The notes beneath the pieces were generated by a model, which saw only the letters and a list, made by a program, of their open reading frames with translations, was not told the DNA's origin and did no database searches. From NCBI RefSeq assembly GCF_029626025.1, contig NZ_JARUBF010000001.1, positions 4,930,001 to 4,994,000 of the forward strand: a stretch of 64,000 nucleotides of DNA, in the 5' to 3' direction. The DNA comes from Solwaraspora sp. WMMD406 (GTDB taxonomy: Bacteria > Actinomycetota > Actinomycetes > Mycobacteriales > Micromonosporaceae). Positions 12,507-40,651 of the stretch are shown here, piece by piece. The position numbers were made by a program, and so were the translations under genes. The first letter of the stretch is position 1. Each line of letters opens with the position of its first letter.

Positions 12507-14187
12507 CGACGTCGACCCCGTAGACGTCGCGGGCGGCGGCCGGCGACACGTAGCCTTCGGCGACGTCTTCGCGGACCGCCTCGGCATCCCGCCCGCGCGG
12601 GTCGCCGTGCCCGCCGCCACCGGCGGTGAGCAGGGTGATCCGGTCACCGGGTACGACCGGGGTCCGCTTGGTGCTGACCCGGTGCTCCCGCTCGGTGCCG
12701 GGGAAGACGATCACCTGGTTCGGGTCCGGCCGGGTGCCGCCGTCGAGCGCCCACGGCGCCGACTTCGTCTTTTTGATCACCGACAGGAACTCGCCCGGGG
12801 TGACGAACCGGATGTCGCGGCGCAGCCCCACGCCGCCCCGGTGCCGGCCGGCGCCGCCGGAGTCGGTGCGCATCTCGACCCGTTCGAAGAACATCCCGGT
12901 CCGGGCTTCGAGGACCTCGATCGGGGTGATCCGGCCGGTGCTGCCGGAGACGTGGGTGGCGGCGTTCGTCCCGTCGTGGTCGCGGGTGGCGCCCCAGCCG
13001 ACCGGGTCGTTGTTGCTGACCGCGAAGAGCTGCCCGGTGTCCGGGTGGATGCCGACCATCATGAACCCGGGCACGTCCCCGCCGGACGAGGCCGCCAACC
13101 GGTCCGGCATGCCCTGGGCGAGCGCCTTGAGGATCAGTTCGACGGCGACGATCCCGGTCCACAGGGTGAACGTCGGCTGCGGGTAGACGGCGTGGAACAG
13201 GCTGCCCGGCTCGGCCTTGACCCGCAGCGGCGCGATGGTGCCGGCGTTCGAGGGCTGGTCCGGCGAGGTCAACGACTTCAGGATGACCTTGCAGATCGCT
13301 CCGGTGGCCCCGTACGGCATGTTGATCGGGCCGGGCACCGCCGGTGACGAGCCGGCGAAGTCGACGGTGAAGGTGCCGTCTGCGATGGTCACGGTGACCT
13401 GCATCTTCACCGGGTCGTCGGTGATGCCGTCGTCGTCGACCCAGTCGGTGGCGGTCCACGACCCCTGCGGCAGCGCGGCCAGGGCGGCCCGGCTGCGCGC
13501 CTCGCCGTCGGCGATGATCGCCTCGACGGCGGCGTCCACGGTGGGCCGGCCGAACTTGGCCAGGATCTCCAGGAACCGCCGCTCGCCGGTGCGCAGCGCG
13601 GCGATCTGGGCGTGCAGGTCGCCGAGCACCTCGGCCGGCATCCGCGAGTTGAACCGGATCAGTTCGTGGATCTCGTGCACCGGCTCACCCCGCGACACCA
13701 CCTTCGTGCCGGGGAAGATCAGCCCCTCCTGGTGCATGTCGGTGGAGTCGAGCACGTACCCCGGGTCCTTGGCGCCGAGGTCCATCCAGTGCGCCCGCAC
13801 ACAGAGGAACCCGACCAGGGTGCCATCGCCCTCCGGATCGGCCTCATCGGGCTGAAAGACCGGCGCGAACAGGGTGGCGTCCGAGGCGTGCGCCGCGTTC
13901 CAGTACGGGTAGTTCAGCAGCACGACGTCGCCGGAGTGCAGGTTCTCCCGGCCGACGTAGTCGACCCCTTTGGCGAGCGAGAAATCGTTGGCGCCGAGGA
14001 AGAAGGTCAACCCGGTCGCTTCGGCGATCAGCCGCAGGTCGGCGTCGTACATCGACATGCCGAAGTCGTGCACCTCGTAGATCACCGGGTTGAACGAGGT
14101 ACGGATCAACGTGGCCCGCATCTCCTCGGCGGCGGAGATCAGGTAGCTGCGGACCACTTCGGTGGTCGCGCCGTCCAGAGTGCTCAC
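12499..14187 (-). CDS. hyuB: Hydantoinase B/oxoprolinase family subunit, first paralogue
   Basis: 562 residues from GTG 14187 (VSTLDGATTEVV). The start overlaps the HyuA stop as GTGA and has GGAGG 5 nt upstream. Motifs are shared with the next gene: LNYPYWNAAHASD, GAKDPGYVLDSTDMHQEG, ARTGMFFERVEMRTDSGGAG, IKKTKSAPWALDGG. It should pair with the adjacent HyuA as the alpha/beta enzyme. Two HyuB copies with one HyuA suggest alternative beta subunits or a mixed complex, which is inference. Confidence 0.9.
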   Translation of the reverse strand: MSTLDGATTEVVRSYLISAAEEMRATLIRTSFNPVIYEVHDFGMSMYDADLRLIAEATGLTFFLGANDFSLAKGVDYVGRENLHSGDVVLLNYPYWNAAHASDATLFAPVFQPDEADPEGDGTLVGFLCVRAHWMDLGAKDPGYVLDSTDMHQEGLIFPGTKVVSRGEPVHEIHELIRFNSRMPAEVLGDLHAQIAALRTGERRFLEILAKFGRPTVDAAVEAIIADGEARSRAALAALPQGSWTATDWVDDDGITDDPVKMQVTVTIADGTFTVDFAGSSPAVPGPINMPYGATGAICKVILKSLTSPDQPSNAGTIAPLRVKAEPGSLFHAVYPQPTFTLWTGIVAVELILKALAQGMPDRLAASSGGDVPGFMMVGIHPDTGQLFAVSNNDPVGWGATRDHDGTNAATHVSGSTGRITPIEVLEARTGMFFERVEMRTDSGGAGRHRGGVGLRRDIRFVTPGEFLSVIKKTKSAPWALDGGTRPDPNQVIVFPGTEREHRVSTKRTPVVPGDRITLLTAGGGGHGDPRGRDAEAVREDVAEGYVSPAAARDVYGVDVDG

Positions 14188-16271
14188 TTCGCCTCCTCCA
14201 GGGTGACCAGCAGGTAGCCGTGCGGGTCGACCTCGACGCGCTGCCCGCTGGGCACCACAGTGGTCGAGGTGCCCTCGTCGACCAGGGCCGGCCCGGCGAA
14301 CCGGTCCCCCGGGGCCAGCTTCGACCGGTCGTAGACGGCGAACGACGCCACCTCGCGGGTGCCGAAGTCGAAGGCGTCGCGGTGGCCGAGCAGTGCCCGC
14401 GTCGGGTCGCCGTCGCGCGTCGGGTCGCCGTCGCCGGCCGCCGGACGGACCAGCTCCGGGCGGGTGGTCCGGCCGATGCCGCGTACCCGCAGGTTGAGGA
14501 TCTGCAGCCGGTTGCTCATCGCGTGGCCGTACCGGGTGCGGTGCAGTTCGGTAAAGGCGGCGCGGATCGCGTCGCGGTCCAAGTCGGTGCCGATCGTGAC
14601 GATCAGGCTGTGTTCCTGGCCGAGGTAGCGCAGCTCCAGTTGGCGTTCCAGCACCGCCGAGGCGGCGTCCACACCTTGCTCCACCAGGGAGCCGACCGCT
14701 TCGGCTTCGACCTCGGCGAACGTCGACTCCAGCACGGCCAGGTCGACGCTGCCCTCCGGCGCGTCGGCGTCCAGGGTGGCCAGCACCGTACGGGAGAAGT
14801 CGTCGACGATGTCGGCCGACAGCATCCCCCAGGCGGAGAAGCCGGACGGGGCGAACGGCACGACGACCTCCCGAATCCCCATCTCGCGGGCCAGCAGCGG
14901 GGCCAGCAGCGGCCCGGCGCCACCGAAGGCCAGCAGCGAGAACACCCGGGGGTCGTGGCCACGTTCCACGGTGATCTGGCGGACCGCGCCGACGGTCCGG
15001 GCCAGTAGTACGTCGTAGACGCCGGCTGCGGCCGCCGTCGGGGTCAGTCCCAGCGGGGCGGCGATCTGCTCGTCGAGGGCGGCCCGCGCCGCCGCGGCCT
15101 GCAACCCCATGGTGCCGGCCAAGAAGCGGTCCGGGTCGACGTAGCCGAGCACCACCGAGGCGTCGGTGACGGTCGGCCGCTGCCCGCCCCGGCCGTAGCA
15201 GACCGGACCCGGATCGGCGCCCGCACTCTGCGGACCCACCTTGAGCAGCCCCCGGTCCAGCCAGGCGATCGAGCCGCCGCCGGCACCGATGGTGCGGATG
15301 TCGTACGTCGGGATCAGCAGCGGGAAGTGCTCCAGCTGCGCCTCGTAGGCGGCGACCGGGCTGCCGCGTTCGATCACGCAGGCGTCCAACGACGTACCGC
15401 CGATGTCGAAGGTCAACAGGTTGTCCCGGCCCAACGCGCCGGCCAGGTAGGCGGCGCCGACGATGCCGCCGGCCGGGCCGGACAGCACGGTGTGCGTCGG
15501 CGACGTCTTGGCCATCGCCGAGGTCATCGACCCGCCGCCGGAGCGCATGATCAGGAACCGGCCGGTGAAGCCCCGGGCGGCCAGCCCGGACTCCAGCTCG
15601 TCGACGTAGCGTTCGAAGATCGGCCGGATGTAGGCCTCCAGCACGGTGGTGCTGGTCCGCTCGTACTCGCGGTGCTCCCGCACGATGTCCGTCGACACCG
15701 AGACGCTGACCTGCGGGTACGCCTCGCGGATGAGCGCGGCGGCGGCGCGCTCGTGGCGCGGGTCGACGTGCGAGTGCAGGAAGCAGACCGCGATCGAACC
15801 GACACCTTGGCCTTCGACCAGGGTACGGGCGGCGGCCCGGACGCTGTCCGGGTCCAGCTCGGTCACCACCCGGCCCCGGTAGTCGAGCCGGCCGGTGACC
15901 CCGGCCGTGTACCGGCGTTTGACCAGGCTCTCCGGCCGCTCGTATTGGAAGTCGTACATGTGGTCGGCGGGCACGTTGCCCCGGCCGAGCAGAAAGATGT
16001 CCCGGAAACCCTCGTTGGTGATGATCCCGGTGGCCCCGCCCCGGCGTTCCAGTACGGCGTTGAGCCCGAGCGTGGTGCCGTGAATGAACAACTCCACCTG
16101 CGACAGGTCGGTGCCGAGCGCGGTCACCGCGTCCAGCACGCCCTCCCACGGGCGGGCCGGGGTGGTCGACGCCTTACGGAACCGGACCTGGTTGGTGCGG
16201 GTGTCGAGTTCCATCGCGTCGACGAAGGTGCCGCCGATGTCGACAGCGAGCCGGATGTGGGGTGCGGACAT
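14184..16271 (-). CDS. hyuA: Hydantoinase A/oxoprolinase family ATPase subunit
   Basis: A 695-residue actin/Hsp70-like ATPase-fold protein: LAVDIGGTFVDAMELD at the N-terminus, LFIHGTTLGLNAVLER, SGPAGGIVGAAYLAG, a second nucleotide-fold motif LTFDIGGTSLDACVIE, and HDPRVFSLLAFGGAGPL. The C-terminal region RLQILNLRVRGIG is also typical. In the family, this subunit uses ATP to activate the substrate carbonyl for hydrolysis or carboxylation together with HyuB. It lies just downstream of the ABC ATPase gene (10-bp gap), so import and processing are one transcription unit. Confidence 0.92.
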   Translation of the reverse strand: MSAPHIRLAVDIGGTFVDAMELDTRTNQVRFRKASTTPARPWEGVLDAVTALGTDLSQVELFIHGTTLGLNAVLERRGGATGIITNEGFRDIFLLGRGNVPADHMYDFQYERPESLVKRRYTAGVTGRLDYRGRVVTELDPDSVRAAARTLVEGQGVGSIAVCFLHSHVDPRHERAAAALIREAYPQVSVSVSTDIVREHREYERTSTTVLEAYIRPIFERYVDELESGLAARGFTGRFLIMRSGGGSMTSAMAKTSPTHTVLSGPAGGIVGAAYLAGALGRDNLLTFDIGGTSLDACVIERGSPVAAYEAQLEHFPLLIPTYDIRTIGAGGGSIAWLDRGLLKVGPQSAGADPGPVCYGRGGQRPTVTDASVVLGYVDPDRFLAGTMGLQAAAARAALDEQIAAPLGLTPTAAAAGVYDVLLARTVGAVRQITVERGHDPRVFSLLAFGGAGPLLAPLLAREMGIREVVVPFAPSGFSAWGMLSADIVDDFSRTVLATLDADAPEGSVDLAVLESTFAEVEAEAVGSLVEQGVDAASAVLERQLELRYLGQEHSLIVTIGTDLDRDAIRAAFTELHRTRYGHAMSNRLQILNLRVRGIGRTTRPELVRPAAGDGDPTRDGDPTRALLGHRDAFDFGTREVASFAVYDRSKLAPGDRFAGPALVDEGTSTTVVPSGQRVEVDPHGYLLVTLEEAK

Positions 16272-25983: not shown

Positions 25984-26889
25984 TCAGTGCTGACCGGCGG
26001 CCTGCTTACGGCGCAGGGTCCGCAGCCAACTCTGCGCGGTGTGTCGAGGAACCGAGTAGTGTGCGGCCACCCCGCTGGTGGTACCCAGCTGGGCGAACAC
26101 CGCGCCGAGGTCGTCCGGCGCACGTCGGTAGCTGCGGGTGCCGGTGCCGGTGGCCGTCCGGTCGGCCGCGTCGGTACGCCTACCACGGCGCGGGGTCGAT
26201 CCCGGTCCACCGGATGCCGCCTGCGTGGTGGCACCCGCTGTGGTGGCGGCACTCGCCGCGGACGTCGTACCGGCAGCCGTCGTACCGGCTCGCCGGGTCT
26301 GCCTACCTGCGGCAGCGGACGTCCGGGCTCCGGCCGTGGTTTTCCCACTCGCGGCCACGGACTTGCCACCCGTGGACTTCCTACCCGCGGTCGCCGACTT
26401 TCCGGCCGTGGCTGCGCCTTTCTTGCCAGCGGCTGCGCCTTTCCTGCCAGCGGCTGCGGCTTTCCTGCCAGCGGCTGCTGGCCTACGGGGTCGAGTCGGC
26501 ACGGCGACCGGCGGCCGGACGTCGTCGGAAGACCGCGCATCGTCGGAGGACCGGACGTCGGCCGCGTCGGTGGTCGGTGCCGTCGCTCCACCATCGACCA
26601 ACTCATCGACTGACGCTAATGCCGGACGCTCGGCGGGGCCGGCCTCGGCCGCTGGCGGGATCGGCGTGGATTCGGCAGCGATCGGATGATCCCCGGATGG
26701 ACCCACAATCGACCTGAGGAGTCGCTCGACATTGAGTGCGGACAACTGGTCCGCGATGAGGCCCGCGCCGGTGCCGGCGCGGACCAGTAGTTCGGTGATC
26801 CGGGTACCGGAGCCGGTCACCTCGACGCGCAACGTGGTGGTCGCCCGGGTGTGATCGTCCGGGGCGATCGTGATGGTGTATGAACTCAC
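25984..26889 (-). CDS. Histone H1-like Ala/Lys-rich protein with C-terminal HTH
   Basis: About 301 residues from GTG 26889 (VSSYTITIAPDDHT), which follows GGAGG by 11 nt; ATG 26907 is a possible earlier start. There are three parts. A conserved N-terminal ~65-residue beta/alpha domain reads SSYTITIAPDD...TTTLRVEVTGSGTRITELLVR. A long low-complexity basic tail has repeated AAAGRKGAAAGKKG-type units, as in bacterial H1-like DNA compactors. A C-terminal helix-turn-helix-like segment reads GVAAHYSVPRHTAQSWLRTL. It probably binds DNA as a nucleoid-associated protein or regulator. It is monocistronic, with its own terminator. Confidence 0.75.
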   Translation of the reverse strand: MSSYTITIAPDDHTRATTTLRVEVTGSGTRITELLVRAGTGAGLIADQLSALNVERLLRSIVGPSGDHPIAAESTPIPPAAEAGPAERPALASVDELVDGGATAPTTDAADVRSSDDARSSDDVRPPVAVPTRPRRPAAAGRKAAAAGRKGAAAGKKGAATAGKSATAGRKSTGGKSVAASGKTTAGARTSAAAGRQTRRAGTTAAGTTSAASAATTAGATTQAASGGPGSTPRRGRRTDAADRTATGTGTRSYRRAPDDLGAVFAQLGTTSGVAAHYSVPRHTAQSWLRTLRRKQAAGQH

Positions 26890-26907
26890 GTGTTGTGGAA
26901 CCTCCAT

Positions 26908-27272
26908 GACTGCGGACGCCGCCGGTGCGGACCAGCCCCGTCGAGGTCACGGCCCGGCAGTACGCCTGACGATATCCGCAGCCAAGCTACCCCTTGGTAG
27001 ACGGAACCACCAGGTAGGGTTTAACTCCCCACAGGAGCATGGGAAAGCAGAGCTGGATCGCCGCTCATCCGGCGTCGCGACATCGCCGAGAGATGCCGTA
27101 CGGGAAACCTTGCGGCACAACGGATCTTAACATTTGTCTAGCTGGATTTATCCGAAGCTCCGTGACATGATCGGCCGAACGTGACCCCTCGCTTCCAATT
27201 AGTCACCAGGCCGGCCAGTGGAAATCCCACCGGCCGGGTGCTGACGAATGGAGCTGACGTGCAGGAAGACCC
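26908..27272. other. Divergent intergenic region, AT-richer than surroundings
   Basis: About 365 bp separate the H1-like gene and the diterpene P450. It includes the most AT-rich stretch nearby (27120-27170, around CTTAACATTTGTCTAGC) and should hold the cassette promoter. I could not fix a convincing -35/-10 pair or a known riboswitch. Confidence 0.5.
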
Positions 27273-28748
27273 ATGACGAACACCACGACACCGCCCCGGG
27301 GTCACCCGGCGTCGGCGACGACCATCTCGGCCTGGCGGATCCTTCCCTCATTGGTCCGCGATCCGCTGGCCACATTGGTCCGTCTCGCCGACCACGCCGA
27401 CGGGCGAGTCGTCCGGCTGGGGCTCGGACCGGTCCGCCCATATCTGATCACCGACCCGGCGCACGTCGCGCATGTGGTACGGGACAACTCCGGCAACTAT
27501 CTGCGCGATGGTCGAGGACTGCTCTGGCAACCGATCAAGCGGCTTTTCGGCGACGGAGTCCTCAGCGAAGGACCCGTCTGGGAATCCAGCCGCCGAACCC
27601 TGCAACCGTTGTTCACCGCACGGCGGGTCGATGCCCTGACCGAGGATCTCGCTGACGCGATCGACGCGGCGATGGAGCCCCTCGCCGAGGCCGCGTACGC
27701 GGGACGGACCGTCGACATGGGGCGGGAACTGTCCCGCATCGTCTGCCGGGCGGTCGTACGGGTGTTGTTCGCCGACCGGTTCTCGGTGACCGACGCGCTA
27801 CGGATCACCGCGGCGCAGGACACCATCGCCACCGCGGTGCTCCCCCGGTTGCTGCTGTCGTTCGTACCCAACTCCGTCCCGGTGCCCGGCGATCGCGCGT
27901 TCCGCGACGCGGTACGGACCATCGACGGTATCGTCCTGCCGGTGGTCCGACAGGTGATGGCGCAACCAGCCGACGGCGGCGACGTCCTGGCCACTCTGGT
28001 CCGGGGGGTCGACGCGCACGGCCGACCGCTGGACGAGACGCAGATCCGCAACGATACCGTCGCCATGTTCGCCACCAGCACCGAAACGACGTACGGGGTG
28101 CTCACCTGGCTCTGGCCGATCCTGCAGGCGCATCCGGAGGTGGCGGCCCGGTTGTACGACGAGGTCGACGAGGTCGTTGGCGCCGGTCCGGTCCGTGGCC
28201 ACCACCTGACCCGGCTGCGGTACACCCGGATGGTCCTCGACGAGCTGTTGCGGCTGTACCCGGTGGCCTGGCTGATGCCCCGTACGGCGGTCGCCGCCGA
28301 CACCATCGGCGGCGTCGGCGTCGAAGCGGGAGCCCACCTGTTGCTGAGCCCCTATCTCACCCAACGCCTGTCCGGTGTCTGGCCCGACCCCGAGCGGTTC
28401 GACCCCGAACGGTTCGACCCCGAACGGACCGACCCCGAACGGACCGACCAGCGGCCCGCTGACACCGACCCGGCCGGGGGCTGCCCGGCCGGCTCCGGAC
28501 CGCTGACCAGCCGACCCGTTCGACGTCCCCGGTACGCGCACTTTCCCTTCGGCGGCGGACCACACCAATGTCTCGGCCAGCACCTGTTCTATCTCGAAGG
28601 ACTGTTGATCGTGGCGTCCATCGTGAGCCGGTTCCGGATCTCGGTGCCGGACGGTCGCGTTCCCCGGCCCCGGGCCGGCGCGTCGCTACGGACCAGCCAT
28701 CCGGTCCAGGTCACGCTCCGACCGGTCGCACCGACCAGGATGGATTGA
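27273..28748 (+). CDS. Cytochrome P450 of the diterpenoid cassette
   Basis: 491 residues; ATG preceded by AGGAAG. Seen: I-helix MFATSTETTY (Glu271-Thr272 pair, but AGG/D replaced by ATST), the ExxR motif E324-LLR, and the haem-thiolate loop FPFGGGPHQCLGQ with ligand Cys433. Longer than most soluble bacterial P450s because of an insertion before the haem loop containing a tandem DPERF/DPERT repeat (residues ~372-391) and a Pro/Gly-rich stretch. It should oxidise the diterpene scaffold made by the next two genes, whose starts overlap in series. Needs separate ferredoxin and reductase partners; a ferredoxin gene lies at 41.0 kb. Confidence 0.92.
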   Translation: MTNTTTPPRGHPASATTISAWRILPSLVRDPLATLVRLADHADGRVVRLGLGPVRPYLITDPAHVAHVVRDNSGNYLRDGRGLLWQPIKRLFGDGVLSEGPVWESSRRTLQPLFTARRVDALTEDLADAIDAAMEPLAEAAYAGRTVDMGRELSRIVCRAVVRVLFADRFSVTDALRITAAQDTIATAVLPRLLLSFVPNSVPVPGDRAFRDAVRTIDGIVLPVVRQVMAQPADGGDVLATLVRGVDAHGRPLDETQIRNDTVAMFATSTETTYGVLTWLWPILQAHPEVAARLYDEVDEVVGAGPVRGHHLTRLRYTRMVLDELLRLYPVAWLMPRTAVAADTIGGVGVEAGAHLLLSPYLTQRLSGVWPDPERFDPERFDPERTDPERTDQRPADTDPAGGCPAGSGPLTSRPVRRPRYAHFPFGGGPHQCLGQHLFYLEGLLIVASIVSRFRISVPDGRVPRPRAGASLRTSHPVQVTLRPVAPTRMD

Positions 28749-29662
28749 TGCAGACTTCGGCGCTGTCGTTGTCCGCCGCCGACAACCTGGGGGCCGCCGC
28801 CGAACACGGGCGCGTGTGCGCGATCGCCGCCACCGGACAGCGTGACCTGATGGCCCGGGCGGCGGCGTACCCCGGGCTGTTTCCGGCCGCGCCGTTCGAC
28901 GCCACCGTGTTCGCCGCAGTCTCGATGGCCACGGCCTTCGGCGCACCGTGGTGCACGCCCGAACAACTACGCCTGGCCAACCGTACGGCGTTGTGGGTGT
29001 TCGCGGTCGACTGGTTGATCGACTACCGGGCCAGCGTGGCGTCCGACGTAGATGATGTGATCCGCGCCTGCCAGGCGGTCGCACACGGCGCGTCGCCGGC
29101 CGGCGACGACGAGGTGGGCGGGTTCCTCGCCGAACTCGTCGCCGAACTGGCGACGTCACCGGCCTTCGCGTCGGGCCGGCAGCGGTGGAGCACGGAGCTC
29201 GACCGGATGCTGCTGGCCATGCGCCGGGAGTGGCGGTGGAAGACGGCCCGGCGGGACGACCCAGCAGGCGACCAGCCGACCTTCGCCGACTACCTCGACA
29301 ACGCCGACAACTTCGGGTCGACGTTCGTCAACGTCTCCCACTGGCTGCGCAACGCGGACGGACCGGCGATCGCCCATCTCGATGAGCTGACGACTGTCAG
29401 CCGCGAGGTGCAGCGGGTGCTCCGGCTGGTCAACGACCTGGCGACACAGGGTCGGGACCGTGGCTGGGGCGATCTCAACGCGATGATGTTCACCTCCGAC
29501 CGGGCCGCGATCCACGCACAGATCAACCAACTCGTGGACCGGTGCCGGGTGCTGCTGCGACCGTTGGAGATCCGGTGCCCCAAGGAGGCGGCCTACCTGT
29601 CCCGCCAGATAGGTTTCAGCAGCGGCTTCTACCGGGTCGCCGACTTCTGGGGCCGGCTGTGA
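28748..29662 (+). CDS. Class I terpene (diterpene) synthase
   Basis: 304 residues; ATG overlaps the P450 stop (TGATG). All-alpha class I terpene cyclase. The first metal motif is D88-WLI-D92 instead of DDxxD. The second is N229-D230-LA-T233-QGR-D237, matching the NSE pattern NDxx(S/T)xxx(E/D). Length and WVFAVDWLIDY style fit the small actinobacterial synthases that ionise a bicyclic diphosphate made by a class II partner, as described for labdane-type pathways such as cyslabdan and raimonol. The direct class II neighbour supports that two-step role; the product is unknown. Confidence 0.85.
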   Translation: MQTSALSLSAADNLGAAAEHGRVCAIAATGQRDLMARAAAYPGLFPAAPFDATVFAAVSMATAFGAPWCTPEQLRLANRTALWVFAVDWLIDYRASVASDVDDVIRACQAVAHGASPAGDDEVGGFLAELVAELATSPAFASGRQRWSTELDRMLLAMRREWRWKTARRDDPAGDQPTFADYLDNADNFGSTFVNVSHWLRNADGPAIAHLDELTTVSREVQRVLRLVNDLATQGRDRGWGDLNAMMFTSDRAAIHAQINQLVDRCRVLLRPLEIRCPKEAAYLSRQIGFSSGFYRVADFWGRL

Positions 29663-31488
29663 CCGTGGACGAACACGCGCCCGAACGCACCGTACCCGGG
29701 CGTGCTGGGACGGCGGACCGGCCACCGACGTCAGCGGCGGACCGGCCACCGACGTCAGCGGCGGCCCACACCTCCGTCGCGCGCCGCGACAGGCCGGCCG
29801 ACCCGCACGCCGCCGGGCCGACCGCCGCCGACCTACACGCCGCCGGGCCGCACGCGGGCTGGTCGGCGGCGGCGCAGGAGGTGGTCGACGGATTGACCCG
29901 CCAGCCCTGGGGCCGCAGCAGCGTCTCCGTCTACGAGACCGCGCGGCTGGTCAGCCAGGCACCCTGGCTACCCGGCCATCAGGAACGCGTCCGCTATCTC
30001 CTCGGGCGGCAGCACCCCGACGGCAGCTGGGGCCCGCCGGGTGGGTACGGCCTGGTGCCGACGTTGAGCGCCACCGAGGCGTTGCTGGCAGGCGGGCCGA
30101 TGTCGGCCGACGGCACGGTGCCGAGCACCGCGTACGACGAGGCCGCGCTCCGCGGGCTGGCCGCCGTACGGCGGATGTTGACCCCCGTACTGGCGGTCGC
30201 CTTACCCGACACGCCGGCGGCCGACATCATCGTGCCGGCGTTGGTCGCCAAGGTGAACCGGCGGCTCGACCGACGCCGGGTCGTGCCGTCGGCACCGGGC
30301 CGATGGACCGACCAGCCACCGTTGTCCTTGCCGGCCGGGCTGGACTCCCGGCGGCTGGCCGCGGTGCGGTTGCTGCTGGGCACCGGCGGTCGCCTGCCGG
30401 CGAAGCTGCTGCACGCGTTGGAGGTGCTGACCGACGAGCCCGGGCCGGTCCGGGTGCCGACCGCGGCACCCGGGCGCCCCGGCCCGCCGGCCGGCCCGGG
30501 CACCATCGGCGGATCTCCGGCCGCGACCGCCGCCTGGCTGGGCATCGTCGGGACCGACCACACCGGGGCCGACGAGGCCCGCGCCTATCTGCGTACGGTG
30601 GTCCGCGAGTACGGCGGCCCGGTCCCCTGTGCCACGCCGATCACCGTCTTCGAACGGGCCTGGGTCCTGGCCACCATGCTCCGCTGTGACCTGCCGATAC
30701 GGGTACCGCCGGAGGTCGTCGCCGGGCTCCGGGACGCCGTCACCCCGACGGGCGCGGCGGCCGGTGCCGGGCTACCGGCCGACGCCGACACCACCGGAGT
30801 GGTCCTGCACGTCCTCGCGCTGCTGGGTGAACCCGCCGACCCCACGGTGCTGCGTGGCTACCAGGTCGACGGTCACTTCGCGACCTGGCCGGACGAGGAC
30901 GGTGCCTCGGTGACCACCAACGCGCACGTCCTCGACGCCCTGGGCACGGTGGTCGCCACCGGCGCGTGGGGAACCGTGGCGGGTGGATCGGCGTACCGCC
31001 GGGACCACACCGATCTGGCGGCGGCCCGCCGCTCGGTGACCGCCTGGCTCTGCGACCGGCAACAGCCCGACGGGTGCTGGTCCGACCGGTGGCACGCGTC
31101 GCCCTACTACGCCACCGCCGCGTGTGCCCTGGCCTTGCACGAGCACGGCACCGGGCCCCGTTCCGCCGCGGCCGTCCTGCGCGCCGTCGACTGGGTGTTG
31201 CGCACCCAACGCCCGGACGGTTCCTGGGGCCGTTGGCAGGGCACCACCGAGGAGACCGCGTACGCGGTACAGGTGCTGCTCGCCACCACCACACCACCGA
31301 GCGCCCGTATGCGTGACGCGGCGTTGCGCGGGGCCCGCCACCTTCGACTGTCCGATGTTGATCGGGGACCGGCGTTGTGGCACGACAAGGACCTCTACCA
31401 GCCGGTGTCGGTGGTGCGGGCCACAGTGATCGGCGCCGGGGAACTGGTCTGGCGGATGGTGACAGGTGGCCTCAACAGGCACGCTTGA
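29659..31488 (+). CDS. Class II diterpene cyclase (labdane/halimane-type diphosphate synthase)
   Basis: 609 residues from GTG 29659, overlapping the class I stop (GTGA). Alpha-barrel cyclase with QW-like repeats (QHPDGSWG, QQPDGCWSD, QRPDGSWGRWQG). The protonating motif reads D375-A-D377-T-T rather than the usual DxDD, a variant I recall from some bacterial class II diterpene cyclases. It should cyclise GGPP by protonation to a bicyclic diphosphate. The first ~65 residues are low complexity with small tandem repeats (DRPPTSAA, then HAAGP) and look dispensable. No GGPP synthase is present in the window, so that precursor must come from elsewhere. Confidence 0.87.
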   Translation: MTVDEHAPERTVPGRAGTADRPPTSAADRPPTSAAAHTSVARRDRPADPHAAGPTAADLHAAGPHAGWSAAAQEVVDGLTRQPWGRSSVSVYETARLVSQAPWLPGHQERVRYLLGRQHPDGSWGPPGGYGLVPTLSATEALLAGGPMSADGTVPSTAYDEAALRGLAAVRRMLTPVLAVALPDTPAADIIVPALVAKVNRRLDRRRVVPSAPGRWTDQPPLSLPAGLDSRRLAAVRLLLGTGGRLPAKLLHALEVLTDEPGPVRVPTAAPGRPGPPAGPGTIGGSPAATAAWLGIVGTDHTGADEARAYLRTVVREYGGPVPCATPITVFERAWVLATMLRCDLPIRVPPEVVAGLRDAVTPTGAAAGAGLPADADTTGVVLHVLALLGEPADPTVLRGYQVDGHFATWPDEDGASVTTNAHVLDALGTVVATGAWGTVAGGSAYRRDHTDLAAARRSVTAWLCDRQQPDGCWSDRWHASPYYATAACALALHEHGTGPRSAAAVLRAVDWVLRTQRPDGSWGRWQGTTEETAYAVQVLLATTTPPSARMRDAALRGARHLRLSDVDRGPALWHDKDLYQPVSVVRATVIGAGELVWRMVTGGLNRHA

Positions 31489-31514: not shown

Positions 31515-31587
31515 GCGCCGTGCCCATGCGCTCAGTACCGCCACGGCACCGACGACGGTTTCATGACCACGCAGGAGTGGCAGGCAA

Positions 31588-31626
31588 ATGACGAGTTACC
31601 CGCAAGTCCGGCCGGGGACGGTGTAA
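31588..31626 (+). other. Twelve-codon leader ORF coupled to the sensor kinase start
   Basis: ATG 31588, with AGGAG 10 nt upstream, reads MTSYPQVRPGTV and stops at TAA 31624-31626, whose last A is the first base of ATG 31626 (TAATG). It is too short for normal gene calling. The arrangement suggests translational coupling of the kinase to a short leader peptide. Confidence 0.4.
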
Positions 31627-34103
31627 TGGTTTCTCGCAGTTCTCGTCTGCGTACCAAGATCGTCGCACTCCTGGTTTCGCTCTGCGCGCTGTGGGCGTTC
31701 GCCGCCTGGGTAACCCTGCGCGACGGTTTGAATCTCCTCTGGGTGCAGACCTACGACAGTGAGATCTACCAGCCGAGCGAACCGCTGCTACTCGGATTGC
31801 AGGCCGAACGCCGTCTCGCCGCCGAGTATCTCGGGGATCCCAGTGAGCGACGGCGCGCGGCGCTCGACGATTCGATTCGGGACAACAGCCAGTTGGCTCG
31901 GGACTTTCAAACGTCGGCGCGGAGTTGGCGGGCGGAACTCGCCGCCGGCGACGAACTGCGGTCGCGGGTGGCCGAGACGGTGTCGCTGTTGGAAGGCCTC
32001 GGCACCACCCGTACGGCGGTGCAGGCGGCTGACCTCGACCGGTCCGACGCGGAAGCCGCCTACACCGCGACGATCGACGCTTTCTTTCACATGTTCGACG
32101 CGCTGGGCAATCTCGACGAGCGCGACATCGCCGACGACACCGCCGCGCTGATCGACCTCAACCGGGCCCGGGAACTCGTCTCCCAACAGGACGCGTTGAT
32201 CGCCGGGGTGCTCGCGGCCGACCGACTCACCGCCGCCGAATACACCCGGTTCGTCCAGCTGGTCGGGGCCGAACGCTTCCTGATCGACAGCACCGTGCCA
32301 CGCCTGCCAGACCGGGACCAGACCCGGTACGCCGACCTCGTCGACTCCGGCGGCCACCAGGGTCTGCGGACCACGCAGGAACGGATCGTCTCGACCAGCC
32401 GGGCGGGTGCCCCGCTGCCGGTCGACGGCACCGACTGGAACTCTGCCACCGAGTCGACTCTCGGCGAGTTGCACACGATCGTGCTCGCCGGCGGCGACGA
32501 TCTCGTCGACCGCGCGGCGCCGGTCGCCATCGGGGTGTTGCTCCGGCTGCTGCTGGCCGCCGGGCTCGGCATGTTCGCCGTCATCGCCTCCATCATCATG
32601 TCGATCACCACGGCCCGCGCGATCGTCGCCCAGTTGGAACGGCTCCGCGACGCGGCGCACCAGCTGGCCGAGGAACGGCTGCCCGGGGTCGTGGAACGAC
32701 TCGGCCGAGGTGAGGAGGTCGACGTCGCGGGTGAGGCCCCGCCGCTGGAGTTCGGAAACGACGAGATCGGCCAGGTGGGCCGGGCGTTCAACCGGGTCCA
32801 GGAAACCGCCGTACGTACCGCCGTGGAACAGGCCGAACTCCGACGCAGCGTCCGTGACGTCTTCCTCAGCCTGGCCCGACGGACCCAGGCCCTGGTGCAC
32901 CGCCAGCTCACCCTGCTCGACGCCATGGAACGCCGCGAGGACGACGCCGACAAGCTCGAAGAGCTGTTCCGGGTCGACCACCTCGCCACCCGAATGCGCC
33001 GCAACGCCGAGAACCTGATCGTGCTCTCCGGCTCGACCCCCGGTCGGACCTGGCGCCGCGACGTGCCGATGGTCGACGTGCTGCGCGGGGCGATCGCGGA
33101 GGTGGAGGACTACACCCGGGTCACCGTGTTGCCGGTCGGCCCGGTGGCGCTGGCCGGCCGGACCGTCGGCGACGTCATCCACCTGTTGGCGGAGTTGATC
33201 GAGAACGCGCTGTCGTTCTCGCCACCGCACACGACCGTCCAGGTGAAGGGTCAACTCGTCGCCAACGGCTACGCGGTGGAGATCGAGGACCGCGGCCTGG
33301 GCATGAGCGACGACGAACGCGACGCGGCCAACGAGCGCGTCGCCAGCCACCCGGAGTTCCGGTTGTCCAGTACGGTGCGGCTCGGACTGTTCGTGGTCAG
33401 CCGACTCACCGAGCGGACCGGCATCCGGATCCATTTGAAGGAGTCCCCGTACGGCGGCACCACAGCGGTGGTGCTGATCCCGCTCGACCTGATCGTGGTG
33501 ACGGCCGACGACGGTTCGGGCGACGACGGTTCGGGCGACGACGGTTCGGCCGCCCACGGTTCGGCCGACGACGGTGTCGCCGATGCGCACCGCCGATCCG
33601 ACCCCGCGCCCGAGGCCGCGAGCACGAACGCCGGTCACGGACCGGAACCTGAGATCGCCGCGGCCCGGCCGCAACGTCACCAGACCATACGGGCGGTGGC
33701 GTCGGTGGTGACGGCGTCGCCGCCGCCCGCCGCGTCGGCGGGACCGTCGGTCGACACACCGACCGGTTCGCTGGCCGGGCCCCTCGCCGGTTCGCTCACC
33801 GACACCCCGTCGACGGCACCGCCAGCGGCCCGGAGCTCGACCTACACGCCGTCTGGGCTGCCGGTGCGGGTACGACCCACCATCGGTCCACCGCCGGCCG
33901 CCGCCCCGCCGCGCCCTACCGGTGGCCTGACCGACGACACGGCCGACCTCACCGGCGGTACCTCCCGACCACCCGAGCAGGTACTGCGCATGATGAGCGC
34001 ATATCAGAGCGGCACCCGGCAGGGCCGCTCCGACGCCGCCCGGCTGGGTGCGGACCCGGACCCGCCCGACGACCAGCCCGCAGACGACCGTACGGGGCAG
34101 TGA
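31626..34103 (+). CDS. cvnA: Conservon sensor-kinase-like protein CvnA
   Basis: 825 residues from ATG 31626; an in-frame ATG at 31563 would add 21 residues but lacks a ribosome site. Order: TM1 (IVALLVSLCALWAFAAWVTL), a ~280-residue extracytoplasmic nitrate/NIT-like sensor domain, TM2 (LLLAAGLGMFAVIASIIM), a HAMP-like linker, a degenerate dimerisation helix (FRVDHLATRMRRNAENLIVL), and a GHKL ATPase domain with the N-box ELIENALSFSPP and the G1 motif EDRGLGMSDDE. A long Pro/Ala/Asp-rich tail follows, with a tandem DDGSGDDGS repeat. In conservons this protein signals to the downstream GTPase; autokinase activity is often doubtful. First gene of the complete cvnABCD set. Confidence 0.92.
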   Translation: MVSRSSRLRTKIVALLVSLCALWAFAAWVTLRDGLNLLWVQTYDSEIYQPSEPLLLGLQAERRLAAEYLGDPSERRRAALDDSIRDNSQLARDFQTSARSWRAELAAGDELRSRVAETVSLLEGLGTTRTAVQAADLDRSDAEAAYTATIDAFFHMFDALGNLDERDIADDTAALIDLNRARELVSQQDALIAGVLAADRLTAAEYTRFVQLVGAERFLIDSTVPRLPDRDQTRYADLVDSGGHQGLRTTQERIVSTSRAGAPLPVDGTDWNSATESTLGELHTIVLAGGDDLVDRAAPVAIGVLLRLLLAAGLGMFAVIASIIMSITTARAIVAQLERLRDAAHQLAEERLPGVVERLGRGEEVDVAGEAPPLEFGNDEIGQVGRAFNRVQETAVRTAVEQAELRRSVRDVFLSLARRTQALVHRQLTLLDAMERREDDADKLEELFRVDHLATRMRRNAENLIVLSGSTPGRTWRRDVPMVDVLRGAIAEVEDYTRVTVLPVGPVALAGRTVGDVIHLLAELIENALSFSPPHTTVQVKGQLVANGYAVEIEDRGLGMSDDERDAANERVASHPEFRLSSTVRLGLFVVSRLTERTGIRIHLKESPYGGTTAVVLIPLDLIVVTADDGSGDDGSGDDGSAAHGSADDGVADAHRRSDPAPEAASTNAGHGPEPEIAAARPQRHQTIRAVASVVTASPPPAASAGPSVDTPTGSLAGPLAGSLTDTPSTAPPAARSSTYTPSGLPVRVRPTIGPPPAAAPPRPTGGLTDDTADLTGGTSRPPEQVLRMMSAYQSGTRQGRSDAARLGADPDPPDDQPADDRTGQ

Positions 34104-34169
34104 CGACGCCAGATGCGCCGCTGAGTCCGCTGACGGCAGGACCAGCCGGCACGAAGAGGGGAACGACTG

Positions 34170-34589
34170 ATGCAGCAGACCGCCTCGATCGCGGACCTGA
34201 CCTGGTTGCTCGACGACCTGGTCGGACGAGTGAAACAGGCCGATCACGCGATCGTTCTGTCGGTGGACGGCCTGCTGATGGCCTCGTCCCGGAACCTCGG
34301 CCGCGACGACGGCGAGCACCTCGCGGCGATGGCGGCCGGCATCCAGAGCCTGGCCCGTGGCGCCGGCAAGCGGTTCCGGGGCGGCTCGGTGCGGCAGACC
34401 ATCATCGAGATGGAGTCGTCGTTCCTGTTCGTGACGGCCGCCGGGCACGGCGCGTGCCTGGCCGTGCTGGCCAGTGAGGAGACCGACGTCGGCCTGATCG
34501 CCTACGAGATGGCCATGCTGGTGACCAGAGCCGGCAAGTACCTGGCGTCCCGGACCCGGCCCACCGATACCTCTACCACAGAGAAATGA
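34170..34589 (+). CDS. cvnB: Conservon roadblock/LC7 protein CvnB
   Basis: 139 residues. ATG with GAGGGGAA upstream. Roadblock fold: LTWLLDDLVGRVKQADHAIV, LSVDGLLMASSRNL, ESSFLFVTAAGHGACLAVL, DVGLIAYEMAML. In Streptomyces conservons CvnB associates with CvnA and the GTPase CvnD and resembles MglB-type GTPase regulators. Lies 66 bp after cvnA. Confidence 0.95.
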   Translation: MQQTASIADLTWLLDDLVGRVKQADHAIVLSVDGLLMASSRNLGRDDGEHLAAMAAGIQSLARGAGKRFRGGSVRQTIIEMESSFLFVTAAGHGACLAVLASEETDVGLIAYEMAMLVTRAGKYLASRTRPTDTSTTEK

Positions 34590-34598
34590 CCTGTCACG

Positions 34599-34985
34599 AT
34601 GAGCCAGCCCGACGATTCCAGTCCGGAGCGGTGGATCGACGACCACGCGGGGCCGGTGGTCCGTCCGTACGCGATGACCCGGGGCCGCACCCGTCCCAGC
34701 CGAGGCCGGTTCGACCTCATCTCGCTGGTCTTCGCCACCCCACGGACGCCCCCACCCGAGGCGGGTCTCGGTCCGGAGCATCTCGCCATCCAGGATCGGT
34801 GCTACGAGCCACTGTCGGTCGCTGAGGTGGCGGCCTACCTGGACCTGCCGCTGGGGACCGTCCGCGTCCTGCTCGGTGACCTATTGGAGCACGGTCTGGT
34901 GCAGGTGCAGGAACCGAGACCGGCGTCGACCCATACCGACGACAGCGTATTCGAGGCGGTAATCAATGGACTACGAGCGCTCTGA
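34599..34985 (+). CDS. cvnC: Conservon DUF742 protein CvnC
   Basis: 128 residues of the DUF742 family, with a winged-helix-like core (LSVAEVAAYLDLPLGTVRVLLGDLL) and the N-terminal VVRPYAMTRGRTRP motif. It overlaps cvnD by 20 bp. Its molecular role is poorly defined in the literature; in conservons it interacts with the other components. Confidence 0.94.
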   Translation: MSQPDDSSPERWIDDHAGPVVRPYAMTRGRTRPSRGRFDLISLVFATPRTPPPEAGLGPEHLAIQDRCYEPLSVAEVAAYLDLPLGTVRVLLGDLLEHGLVQVQEPRPASTHTDDSVFEAVINGLRAL

Positions 34986-35568
34986 TCAGCGAATCGACGA
35001 GGTCGTCGCGCCGACCGCCGTCAAGGTCCTGATCGCCGGCGGGTTCGGGGTGGGCAAGACCACCCTGGTCGGCTCGGTGAGCGAGACCCGACCGCTGCGG
35101 ACCGAGGAGTTGCTGACCGAGGTCGGGGTGGCCGTCGACGACGTCTCCGGAGTCGAGGGCAAGACCACGACGACCGTCGCGATGGACTTCGGGCGGATCA
35201 CCGTGAGCAAGGATCTGGTTCTCTACCTGTTCGGCACACCCGGCCAGGAGCGGTTCCTGTTCGTGTGGGACGAGCTGTCGCTCGGCGCGCTCGGCGCGGT
35301 GGTCCTCGCCGACACCCGCCGCCTCGCCGACTGCTTCCCGTCCATCGACTACTTCGAGCAGCGGGGCACCCCTTTCATCGTCGCGGTCAACTGTTTCGAC
35401 GGGGCTCGGCAGTACGCGCTCGACGAGGTCCAGCTGGCGCTGAATCTCGACCCGGAGGTGCCGGTGGTGCTGTGCGACGCCCGGCAGCGGCAGTCCGGCA
35501 AGGAGGTGCTGATCACGTTGTTGCAGCACGCCCGGGGTCACTCGAAACGGACCGCCGTCGTCGGGTGA
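34966..35568 (+). CDS. cvnD: Conservon small GTPase CvnD
   Basis: 200 residues, Ras-like. G1 P-loop GGFGVGKTTLVGSVSE, G3 FGTPGQERFLF, G4 VNCFDGA (NxxD in place of NKxD, usual for this family) and G5-like DARQ. Start ATG 34966 lies inside cvnC. Acts at the membrane with CvnABC as a signalling switch, comparable to eukaryotic GPCR or MglA systems. Confidence 0.95.
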   Translation: MDYERSDQRIDEVVAPTAVKVLIAGGFGVGKTTLVGSVSETRPLRTEELLTEVGVAVDDVSGVEGKTTTTVAMDFGRITVSKDLVLYLFGTPGQERFLFVWDELSLGALGAVVLADTRRLADCFPSIDYFEQRGTPFIVAVNCFDGARQYALDEVQLALNLDPEVPVVLCDARQRQSGKEVLITLLQHARGHSKRTAVVG

Positions 35569-38353: not shown

Positions 38354-39711
38354 CAGGGCTATTGCGTAGTCGGGTAACTCCTGGTCACGGCGTCGATGAG
38401 GTCTGTAGAACGGCGGTTCGCTCGTCGGGTGGCGCGGGCGATGTTGGGTTCGCCGTTGCTGCGGTGGTAGCCGACCGCGGTGTTACGGAGTGTGGCGAAG
38501 ACGGCGGGTCCGTTTCCGGTCCGGGCGTGATGGGCATCCTCACGTAACGTGACATCGCGGACGTAGTGCAGGCGGTTCTCGATATGCCACTCCGCCCGGG
38601 CCCAGGTGCCGAGGTCGGCGGGTCGGGCCTGTCCAGCGGGCAGGGACACCGTCAGGTACGCCGTTTCGCGGCTGGTCCTGCCCTTCACCGTGCGGGTACG
38701 GGTGATCCGGACGGCCTGCTGGGCGTAGGGGAAGCCGAGCCCGCCGGGGGTCGCCACGGTGACAGCTTTGACGGTGCGGGTCTCCGTGCGGCCGTGTCCG
38801 GTGTCCCGGGTCCGGGCTCCAACCGGGACCTGCGCCCAGGGAACAGCTTTGAGCTGGGCGAACGTGGTCGGCCGGTTGGCTTTGACCGTGACCATCAGAT
38901 GTCCGCCGGCGGCGGCCAGGTACTCGGCGTGTCCGGTCTGGGCGTGCAGGGCGTCCGCGACGACCAGGACGTCGGTCAGCGATCCCAGCTGGGCGGCGAC
39001 CAGGCGCAGCAGGGGCGTGAACGCCGGGATCTCATTCGACTTCGCGGCGATCTGGACCTGGGCGAGCACGACGCCGGTGCTGGTGTCGTAGGCCGACAGC
39101 AGATGGATCTGACGTCCGTCGGCGAGTCGGGCGCCGCGTACGACCTTGCCGTCGACGGCGATGACGAGGCGCCACCGCCGCCCGCTGCGGGTGACGGGTG
39201 TCGTGCGTGCCAGTAGCCAGCTGGCCAGCACCGTCGACAGGGCCTGCGCGTCGACGCGGATCAACAGCCGCCACACCGTGGTCGCGGCGGGAACCCGGTC
39301 GGTGAAGCCGAGCCTCGCCCACGCGGTGCGGTCCAGGTCCCGTACCCAGTCGGCGATCGCGGCGAAGGTACATGCCCCGGCCAGTACCGCGCACACCGCG
39401 ACGGCGAGCACGCTGACCAGGGGGTAGCGGCGGCCACGCGGATCACGCGGATCGGGTACCGCCCTCAACGCGGCGAACAGGCCGTGATGCTCGCTGTCGG
39501 TGACCGCCGCCGGTGGTGGCGTATCGGTGGGTCGGTGCGGAAGCAGAATCTCGGTGGGTGATGATGGCATCGGCGGGTGCGGTCCTTCTCGTGATCATGT
39601 GGCTTCGCAACTTCATGATCACCAACGGGCCGCGCCCGTCCTGCATAGACCCCCGAATTCCTCCCGAACTCCCAGCTCAGCCAGCCCTCAACCGACTACG
39701 CAACAGCCCTG
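38354..39711 (-). mobile_element. Complete ISAs1-family insertion sequence
   Basis: 1358 bp. The left terminal inverted repeat CAGGGCTATTGCGTAGTCGG (38354-38373) matches the right end (39692-39711, reverse complement CAGGGCTGTTGCGTAGTCGG) with one mismatch. It carries one full transposase gene on the minus strand, whose stop lies within the left repeat. Its right end abuts a truncated direct repeat of itself. Confidence 0.92.
38359..39570 (-). CDS. ISAs1-family transposase, full length
   Basis: 403 residues with the N-terminal DDE_Tnp_1-associated helical domain (LFAALRAVPDPRDPRGRRYPL), then an RNase-H-like DDE core: VIAVDGKVVRGARLADG, DVLVVADALHAQTGHAEYL and WHIENRLHYVRDVTLREDAH with the catalytic Asp/Asp/Glu. 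Cuts and pastes the surrounding element. Intact, so the element may be active. Confidence 0.95.
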   Translation of the reverse strand: MPSSPTEILLPHRPTDTPPPAAVTDSEHHGLFAALRAVPDPRDPRGRRYPLVSVLAVAVCAVLAGACTFAAIADWVRDLDRTAWARLGFTDRVPAATTVWRLLIRVDAQALSTVLASWLLARTTPVTRSGRRWRLVIAVDGKVVRGARLADGRQIHLLSAYDTSTGVVLAQVQIAAKSNEIPAFTPLLRLVAAQLGSLTDVLVVADALHAQTGHAEYLAAAGGHLMVTVKANRPTTFAQLKAVPWAQVPVGARTRDTGHGRTETRTVKAVTVATPGGLGFPYAQQAVRITRTRTVKGRTSRETAYLTVSLPAGQARPADLGTWARAEWHIENRLHYVRDVTLREDAHHARTGNGPAVFATLRNTAVGYHRSNGEPNIARATRRANRRSTDLIDAVTRSYPTTQ

Positions 39712-40651
39712 GTCCAGCGGGCAGGGACACCGTCAGGTACGCCGTTTCGCGGCTGGTCCTGCCCTTCACCGTGCGGGTACGGGTGATCCGGACGGCCTGC
39801 TGGGCGTAGGGGAAGCCGAGCCCGCCGGGGGTCGCCACGGTGACAGCTTTGACGGTGCGGGTCTCCGTGCGGCCGTGTCCGGTGTCCCGGGTCCGGGCTC
39901 CAACCGGGACCTGCGCCCAGGGAACAGCTTTGAGCTGGGCGAACGTGGTCGGCCGGTTGGCTTTGACCGTGACCATCAGATGTCCGCCGGCGGCGGCCAG
40001 GTACTCGGCGTGTCCGGTCTGGGCGTGCAGGGCGTCCGCGACGACCAGGACGTCGGTCAGCGATCCCAGCTGGGCGGCGACCAGGCGCAGCAGGGGCGTG
40101 AACGCCGGGATCTCATTCGACTTCGCGGCGATCTGGACCTGGGCGAGCACGACGCCGGTGCTGGTGTCGTAGGCCGACAGCAGATGGATCTGACGTCCGT
40201 CGGCGAGTCGGGCGCCGCGTACGACCTTGCCGTCGACGGCGATGACGAGGCGCCACCGCCGCCCGCTGCGGGTGACGGGTGTCGTGCGTGCCAGTAGCCA
40301 GCTGGCCAGCACCGTCGACAGGGCCTGCGCGTCGACGCGGATCAACAGCCGCCACACCGTGGTCGCGGCGGGAACCCGGTCGGTGAAGCCGAGCCTCGCC
40401 CACGCGGTGCGGTCCAGGTCCCGTACCCAGTCGGCGATCGCGGCGAAGGTACATGCCCCGGCCAGTACCGCGCACACCGCGACGGCGAGCACGCTGACCA
40501 GGGGGTAGCGGCGGCCACGCGGATCACGCGGATCGGGTACCGCCCTCAACGCGGCGAACAGGCCGTGATGCTCGCTGTCGGTGACCGCCGCCGGTGGTGG
40601 CGTATCGGTGGGTCGGTGCGGAAGCAGAATCTCGGTGGGTGATGATGGCAT
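39677..40651 (-). pseudogene. C-terminally truncated ISAs1 transposase
   Basis: 324-residue frame, identical to the full transposase up to SLPAG and then running across the junction into 8 foreign residues (PGLLRSRL...) and a stop. The last ~90 native residues, including the WHIENR Glu motif, are missing, so it cannot be catalytic. It might act as a trans-inhibitor. Confidence 0.92.

Follow-up and report, generated by a model that had tools for sequence, protein, structure and literature searches.

The 64,000-nucleotide (nt) stretch of Solwaraspora sp. WMMD406 analysed here (NZ_JARUBF010000001.1; 'the window' hereafter means this whole stretch) contains a diterpene cassette, i.e. genes for a cytochrome P450, a class I diterpene synthase and a class II diterpene cyclase, followed 74 bp after the class II gene by a complete conservon, cvnA-cvnB-cvnC-cvnD (31563–35568). 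Conservons are actinobacterial G-protein systems. In relatives the cassette and the conservon are linked, the conservon belongs to a dedicated clade, and the three enzymes and the sensor domain of CvnA have been exchanged together. The cassette alone is ordinary and of the terp1 kind; the seven-gene unit is unusual. Judged from its genes and their variation, the locus probably works as one functional unit that joins a diterpene cassette to a sensing conservon, and functional coupling of the two halves is very likely.

A first-pass annotation of this DNA had described a compact diterpenoid cassette of P450, class I and class II genes that overlap head to tail and carry intact motifs. Open reading frames (ORFs), Pfam families and homology bear out this description; the three genes are, however, merely the first part of a seven-gene operon, and the conservon just downstream had been missed. 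The features are as follows (E, expectation value; aa, amino acids).

26908–27272, + strand: upstream intergenic region, presumed from its sequence to hold the promoter
27273–28748, + strand: cytochrome P450, 491 aa (PF00067, E 1.6e-57)
28748–29662, + strand: class I diterpene synthase, Sat1646 relative, 304 aa (PF19086, Terpene_syn_C_2, E 3.4e-7)
29659–31488, + strand: class II diterpene cyclase, 609 aa from GTG (PF13243, SQHop_cyclase, E 8.9e-13)
31563–34103, + strand: cvnA, membrane sensor kinase-like protein with NIT, HAMP and HATPase domains (PF08376, E 6.6e-36; PF02518, E 3.9e-12; PF00672, E 7.3e-6)
31794–32504, + strand: NIT sensor domain of CvnA, aa 78–314, predicted to be extracytoplasmic (flanking hydrophobic segments, model)
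32760–33512, + strand: kinase half of CvnA, aa 400–650, conserved chassis (distance comparison of relatives)
34170–34589, + strand: cvnB, roadblock/LC7 protein (PF03259, E 5.3e-28)
34599–34985, + strand: cvnC, DUF742 protein (PF05331, E 2e-35)
34966–35568, + strand: cvnD, small GTPase-like protein, overlapping cvnC (PF03029, E 1.3e-32)

The proposed mechanism has two parts. In the first, a synthase encoded outside the operon would supply geranylgeranyl diphosphate (GGPP), the class II enzyme (DxDTT, D576) would convert it to a copalyl-type diphosphate, as its homology and matching residues suggest, the class I enzyme would turn this into an olefin of the isopimaradiene type, probably another than the 8,15-diene, and the P450 may oxidise this olefin, as in terp1. 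In outline, we hold this route from GGPP through a copalyl-type and an isopimaradiene-type intermediate to P450 oxidation with considerable confidence. In the second part, the diterpenoid, alone or as part of a cue, would be recognised by the extracytoplasmic NIT domain of the strain's own CvnA, which in turn would act through CvnB and CvnC on the GTPase CvnD.

Linkage of the diterpene cassette and the conservon across relatives

Class I matches are present in 175 of the 354 genomes of the family (Micromonosporaceae). We sampled 79 places from 78 genomes (G113 twice), picked by rank or few contigs and not by linkage; together with 50 named loci and the window these make 130, and removal of seven with identical class I proteins (match residues 21–250) leaves 123 loci (i.e. 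the window, 78 with G handles and 44 named; a 10-base placeholder region in G222 was unused). Among the named loci are some from Dactylosporangium, Virgisporangium, Actinomadura and Sinosporangium and many from Micromonospora. The Genome Taxonomy Database (GTDB) genus that holds Micromonospora has a class I match in 146 of its 160 species genomes, as counted from the listing.

The order P450, class I, class II, cvnA, cvnB, cvnC, cvnD on one strand, hereafter the standard order, occurs in 104 of the 123 loci. Sequence of at least 7.5 kb on both sides of the class I gene is available for 107 loci, and 100 of these have all four cvnABCD genes near it; all but one of the 100 (L078, without P450) also have the P450 and class II genes. 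The linkage survives rearrangement, with the conservon divergent (inverted) in L099 and L164 and the order permuted in L168 and L170, and is kept in another family by Sinosporangium (L106 and L110). A possible class I start overlaps the P450 stop or lies at most 10 nt from it in 92 of 99 standard-order operons, and the same holds for the class II start and class I stop in 85 of 99; both counts are generous because the nearest possible start was taken. The window's downstream neighbours (DoxX-like and Lsr2) are confined to its genus, where they recur in 7 of the 123 loci, the window included.

The seven loci without a full conservon are L045, L046 and L047 (decayed), L059, L060 and the Actinomadura loci L105 and L108. 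In the window's genus the operon is intact in four of seven genomes; in the other three the class I protein lacks D88 and D92, the class II gene is matched partly, the P450, cvnA and cvnB genes were not detected, and cvnD is kept in one. Here the enzymes and the signalling genes have decayed together. Class I is unmatched in 14 of the 160 genomes of the GTDB genus that holds Micromonospora; nine of these 14 also lack a cvnB above 65% identity.

Conservons are common, with 3–8 DUF742 matches in each of eight genomes counted (one of six in G155 is below the cut-off), and L059 and L060 carry cyclases without a conservon. Both observations would fit an ordinary biosynthetic cluster with an unrelated conservon as its chance neighbour. 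We consider this extremely improbable: the chance of a conservon in such a 16-kb stretch is estimated at about 1%, whereas 100 of 107 loci are linked, through rearrangements and into Sinosporangium, and their conservons form one clade. In a tree of CvnB+C+D (three of 44 DUF742 loci, L195, L208 and L215, were left out for want of a cvnB or cvnD match, and six terpene-linked loci were added by hand), 15 terpene-linked conservons, the two from Sinosporangium included, lie on one side of a branch and 32 others on the other side (support 90/81, not starred). Without the long row L168, the 14 remaining terpene-linked rows have a support of 97/91. Of the eight loci in the sister group, seven were read, and none of these has a cyclase or P450 match. 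On the linkage counts and the separate clade, we reject chance neighbourhood.

Some loci show other arrangements. L105 and L108 (Actinomadura) have a P450, a class I and a cvnA-like gene, with no cvnBCD and no class II match; the CvnA-like protein of L105 has a NIT domain and is followed by a gene for an extracytoplasmic function (ECF) sigma factor, and L108 has two class I-like matches. From their gene content, these loci may represent another type of link between a terpene synthase and a CvnA-like sensor. In L083 and L085 (Micromonospora) the seven-gene operon is followed directly by an extra cvnB-C-D set; a weak P450 match precedes this set, and its cvnA match is short in L083 and absent in L085. 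A short-chain dehydrogenase lies close ahead of two other conservons (L265, in G184, 12838–15199; L264, in G214, 6462–7478), separated from cvnA by a P450 in L265; these are perhaps further enzyme-plus-conservon operons. L266 (G218 C1:242001-262000) contains a distant second class II cyclase (43%), a weak P450 match and a weakly similar class I-like gene (25%), with no conservon match in its 20 kb.

Co-variation and exchange of enzymes and sensor

We then compared protein distances among operons with all seven genes within 9 kb (108 loci, of which L077, L115, L139 and L159 were dropped because of a short cvnA or class II match). The resulting 104 operons are not identical to the 104 standard-order loci and include the rearranged L099, L164, L168 and L170. 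Distances of the NIT domain follow those of the P450, class I and class II proteins (Pearson r 0.83, 0.81 and 0.86, respectively) much more closely than those of the kinase half of its own CvnA (0.46) or of CvnB+C+D (0.49), whereas the kinase half follows CvnB+C+D (0.91). The P450 and class I proteins also vary together (0.83). Partial correlations between NIT and enzymes are 0.75–0.81 (permutation p 0.001). In sliding windows along CvnA the change lies near residue 320–420, and the tail beyond residue 640 tracks neither side well at its start.

The same pattern appears in pairs of operons that are close in CvnB+C+D (distance <0.06; 536 pairs), among which the sensor is bimodal (259 pairs <0.25 and 223 pairs >0.5). 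Mean P450, class I and class II distances are 0.08, 0.15 and 0.17 where the NIT distance is <0.25, versus 0.44, 0.44 and 0.47 where it is >0.5, while the kinase mean is 0.04 in both. Close pairs can differ by 44–58% in enzymes and sensor and by 4% in the rest. DNA profiles of three such swap pairs (L054/L143, L117/L156 and L149/L151) have upstream bins that are mostly 89–99% identical (a few are 45–77% in the last two pairs), about 37–76% identity from just before the P450 gene through the sensor, and at least 93% again by 3.6–3.75 kb past the class I start, near CvnA residue 330–400; a second variable stretch lies near 4.5–4.8 kb past the class I start. The exchanged block begins roughly 200–400 bp upstream of the P450 gene. 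Six swap pairs share flanks; exchange in the pairs examined has therefore taken place at the same chromosomal site.

Grouping the sensors into alleles gives sets that correspond well to those of the P450, class I and class II proteins (adjusted Rand index 0.90, 0.95 and 0.81) and less well to chassis groups (0.23–0.54), at clustering thresholds of our own choice. The 22 NIT allele groups need 21 changes, the minimum, on the enzyme tree versus 38 on the chassis tree (both quick trees). Within groups, a median dN/dS (nonsynonymous to synonymous rate ratio, simple count) of 0.07–0.38 indicates purifying selection. In brief, in relatives the enzyme cassette and the sensor domain are exchanged together, as a single allelic block, and the chassis stays conserved. 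The window itself is not among the swap pairs; by every part its nearest relatives are L042–L044 of its own genus, with distances of 0.30, 0.30 and 0.38 for the enzymes, 0.43 for the sensor, 0.09 for the kinase half and 0.11 for CvnB+C+D.

A sister conservon, matched in 160 of 160 genomes of Micromonospora's genus, served as control (56 genomes used, i.e. 55 plus G226, 54 of them shared with the operon set). In this sister conservon, NIT distances track those of the kinase half of the same protein (r 0.86) and of CvnB+C+D (0.85), and none of its 70 close pairs has a NIT distance >0.5. In the 54 genomes with both conservons, the NIT–kinase correlation is 0.35 for the terpene-linked conservon versus 0.86 for the control; among 75 pairs that are close by the control, the terpene-linked sensor is >0.5 apart in 39 and the control sensor in none. 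Mean divergence is 0.53 for the terpene-linked sensor, 0.37–0.43 for the enzymes and 0.30 for the control sensor, while the terpene-linked kinase half diverges less than that of the control (0.105 versus 0.195).

Enzymes of the cassette and their likely product

Residues 72–593 of the class II protein align with the class II diterpene cyclase PtmT2 at 369 bits; its best match to a squalene-hopene cyclase is local (residues 457–538) and scores 50 bits. The class I protein matches Sat1646 with 292 bits, and its AlphaFold model (predicted local distance difference test score, pLDDT, 90) superposes on Sat1646 with a template modelling score (TM) of 0.91 and 47% identity, far above the (E)-biformene synthase LrdC (TM 0.66, 18% identity). 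The first-pass annotation had set placement of the class II protein among squalene-hopene cyclases, or of the class I protein among unrelated prenyltransferases, as tests of its reading; families, bit scores and structure superposition rule out both identities.

The class I enzyme keeps the Mg-binding DxxxD and NDxx(S/T)xxxD of the Sat1646 type (D88WLID92 and N229DLATQGRD237). At the Sat1646 sites Val84, Tyr183 and Tyr288 it has V84, F189 and Y295; the set linked to 8,15-diene specificity, i.e. the Tyr183–Tyr288 dyad plus Val84, is incomplete in the window through Tyr183 to Phe189. Sat1646, from a Salinispora cluster nearly identical to terp1, converts copalyl diphosphate (CPP) to isopimara-8,15-diene, its Y183F mutant loses this product and forms isopimara-8(14),15-diene, the whole terp1 operon yields isopimara-8,15-dien-19-ol, and SaCPS, a Salinispora class II relative, gives normal CPP (PMC9814573). 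Because F189 occupies the Tyr183 site and Y183F gives the 8(14),15-diene, the class I enzyme would probably make a different isopimaradiene isomer from the 8,15-diene, a prediction that rests on one mutant of an enzyme 47% identical. Together with Phe85 in place of Thr85 of Sat1646, this residue leads us to expect another double-bond isomer than that of Sat1646. A Micromonospora isolate makes isopimara-2-one-3-ol-8,15-diene (PMC4584356).

The class II enzyme has the D375 and D377 acid motif (D375ADTT) plus D576 at the D502 site of PtmT2, which is the pattern of CPP synthases; with D576 at this site, a copalyl-type product is expected. At this site the clerodane-forming Tpn2 has Gly and the halimane-forming Rv3377c has Ala (PMC9814783). 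Rv3377c shares the class II fold and the acid motif with the window's protein (93 bits) and differs at the base site (Ala versus Asp576); because of D576, we reject a halimane product. Relatives vary at both sites: eight different amino acids occur at the class I position equivalent to Tyr183 (123 loci), and of 113 class II proteins 98 have Asp and 15 have Gly at the base site.

The closest characterised system is terp1 of Salinispora arenicola CNS-205 and sat of Salinispora sp. PKU-MA00418, with a pimarane-type product, and not the cyslabdan, raimonol or halimane pathways to which the cassette had first been compared. Like the window, the labdane clusters of cyslabdan and raimonol combine class II, class I and P450 genes; they also carry a GGPP synthase. 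We set them apart by way of LrdC, the weaker structural match to the class I protein. Terp1/sat has the same P450, class I and class II genes as the window. The class I protein of G155 is identical to Sat1646 at 279 of 285 residues (count from the alignment), which makes G155 almost certainly a Salinispora genome; its operon, L112, has the same seven genes in the same order, no polyprenyl synthase match nearby and the conservon downstream, as in the window. Identity between the window and L112 is 49% for class I, 45% for class II, 52% for P450 and merely 38% for the sensor domain. G266, another Salinispora-type candidate, is less similar to Sat1646 than G155.

A GGPP synthase is absent from the operon, as the first-pass annotation had noted, and the check for one elsewhere in the genome that it had proposed gives four polyprenyl synthase genes in the Solwaraspora genome, all away from the operon. 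At an E cut-off of 1e-6, no polyprenyl synthase turned up within the flanking DNA of the 123 loci, which extends as far as about 10 kb on each side. The annotation had also suggested from gene order and the missing GGPP synthase that the product may be new; neither is a sign of novelty, because terp1/sat has both. F189 is another reason why the product may be new.

The nearest NCBIfam models of the P450 are terpene oxygenases, with scores below their cut-offs. Since CvnE accessory proteins of conservons are P450s (PMC13343842), the P450 could belong to the conservon and not to biosynthesis. This appears very unlikely: CvnE and CvnF go with a CvnA that lacks a sensor domain (PMC13343842), whereas the window's CvnA has a NIT domain, and the P450 gene, which lies upstream and overlaps the class I gene, shares the variation of the cyclases. 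On the NIT domain and the co-variation, we reject a CvnE role.

Sensor domain and possible role of the diterpenoid

Hydrophobic segments of CvnA (aa 29–54 and 314–359) bracket the NIT domain, whose model (pLDDT 83) matches the nitrate receptor NasR (4akk; E 3.3e-5, TM 0.69). Ligands of CvnA NIT domains are described as untested to date (PMC13343842). In comQXP of Bacillus subtilis, the synthesis genes and the sensor half form one variable block beside a conserved kinase half (PMC6334282 and PMC4008528), as here. Because the layout of variation matches comQXP, with the diterpene cassette as the synthesis part, we favour the diterpenoid as the ligand of the CvnA receptor, a reading for which the case at present appears evenly balanced. 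The pattern of a pherotype system (i.e. synthesis and sensor co-vary and are exchanged while the kinase is conserved) is found for this locus in relatives; the likeness is one of variation pattern. The two loci differ in that the enzymes make a diterpenoid and not a modified peptide, and in that a G-protein module takes the place of the response regulator; they are not homologous as loci. A fuller version, to which we give slightly less than even credence, is a Micromonosporaceae pherotype system in which allele-specific oxidised diterpenes would serve as private signals, read by the cognate CvnA NIT domain and relayed by a Ras-like G protein, with cassette and receptor domain exchanged as a unit.

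Several observations weigh against the diterpenoid as ligand. Some concern the statistics: (i) by rank correlation the contrast is smaller (NIT versus enzymes 0.69, 0.70 and 0.69, versus kinase 0.42 and versus CvnB+C+D 0.47), and class I follows the kinase half (0.62) and CvnB+C+D (0.67) nearly as well as the sensor (0.70); (ii) pairs are not independent, the 168 swap pairs of the 54-genome set coming from 26 genomes; (iii) judged by the control, species in swap pairs are somewhat further apart than those in non-swap pairs (kinase median 0.12 versus 0.07); and (iv) alleles were compared between species, not within one. Others concern single loci. In L170 the P450 and the sensor fall into one allele group, whereas its class I protein (0.54–0.59 apart) and its class II base residue differ. 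In G166 the three enzymes (L059) and the conservon (L257) lie at separate places, and its sensor, in allele group 10, mismatches its Sat1646-like class I residues. Five of the 14 class I-less genomes (G290, G235, G153, G209 and G305) keep a close cvnB, 79–81% identical; in four of them (L258–L261) a full conservon stands without a cyclase or P450 beside it, and the fifth locus, L262, ends at a contig edge. No diterpenoid exporter was identified, and no search for one was made. Finally, the sensor-coding end of cvnA adjoins the class II gene in the standard order and the P450 gene in the divergent loci and L170, a position in which hitch-hiking could occur.

If the enzymes were exchanged because diverse diterpenes are favoured, the 5' part of cvnA could simply be carried along until homology resumes in its kinase part. 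The exchanged block is indeed contiguous and ends where sequence conservation resumes, product-determining residues are highly variable in both cyclases, and the sensor of L170 goes with its physical neighbour, the P450, and not with class I. However, the sensor is more divergent (0.53) than the enzymes and the control sensor, and the kinase half less so than that of the control, which a passenger would not need; we regard hitch-hiking as rather unlikely, with about one chance in a few.

A somewhat stronger rival, still clearly short of probable, is that the conservon is a pathway-adjacent regulator, which senses an outside cue (e.g. nitrate or a competitor's compound) and switches the operon, the diterpene being defensive or physiological and not the ligand. 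The NIT fold is that of NasR, and an invariant Glu-Arg of the NIT domain (CvnA residues 82–83) aligns with the Glu-Arg of NasR, whose Arg we take to be nitrate-binding; a nitrate-like or other anion ligand is possible, which also counts against the diterpenoid. Cvn8 of Streptomyces coelicolor, which represses an adjacent lanthipeptide cluster, is a precedent for such regulation (PMC8510531 and PMC13343842), the terp1 product was not observed in pure cultures, which would fit a silent cluster (PMC10301674), and some genomes have the conservon without the enzymes. On the other hand, a regulator does not predict why the sensor tracks the enzymes and not its own kinase, and leaves unexplained the divergent sensor alleles of the enzyme-free L258–L261, which lie at least 0.49–0.53 from every enzyme-linked sensor although their kinase halves lie 0.07–0.09 from the nearest. 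The window-type conservon shares with Cvn8 and other conservons the cvnA-B-C-D order and domains, and with Cvn8 an adjacent biosynthetic cluster; unlike those compared, it forms a clade of its own, has a three-gene diterpene cassette in front and has a NIT sensor that is exchanged with the enzymes.

If the diterpenoid is the ligand, the locus would be a terpenoid signalling system, for which no close precedent was found among the matches listed, and would offer a bacterial diterpene hormone together with its receptor and the first ligand class for conservons. No paper linking a conservon with a diterpene operon was found among the matches listed, which cover mostly freely accessible literature. 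For each strain, genomics names a candidate ligand class and a candidate receptor, and the pairing of diterpene with sensor allele becomes a direct prediction, through the residues at the class I Tyr183 site and the class II base site.

Other features of the window

Within the cassette, the class I ATG shares TGATG with the P450 stop and the class II GTG shares GTGA with the class I stop. The class II N-terminus is a low-complexity extension. Tandem repeats (15-bp and 24-bp units) lie at 28384–28449, inside the P450 gene and before its haem region, and at 29711–29772, in the class II N-terminal extension. A scan for sigma-70-type promoters and terminators found none. Upstream of the P450 gene, an ORF on the − strand (25984–26907) is rich in Ala/Gly/Lys repeats and has no Pfam match.

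Mobile elements are also present. Two side-by-side DDE transposase genes of the same family (PF13808 and PF01609) lie on the − strand at 38359–39570 and 39677–40651, the second with a partial match to the catalytic domain. An IS605 OrfB/TnpB-like gene (PF01385 and PF07282) lies on the + strand at 49978–50913, and its 3' end is overlapped by an Rfam Transposase-2 RNA (RF03015, 68 bits, 50813–50879, + strand).

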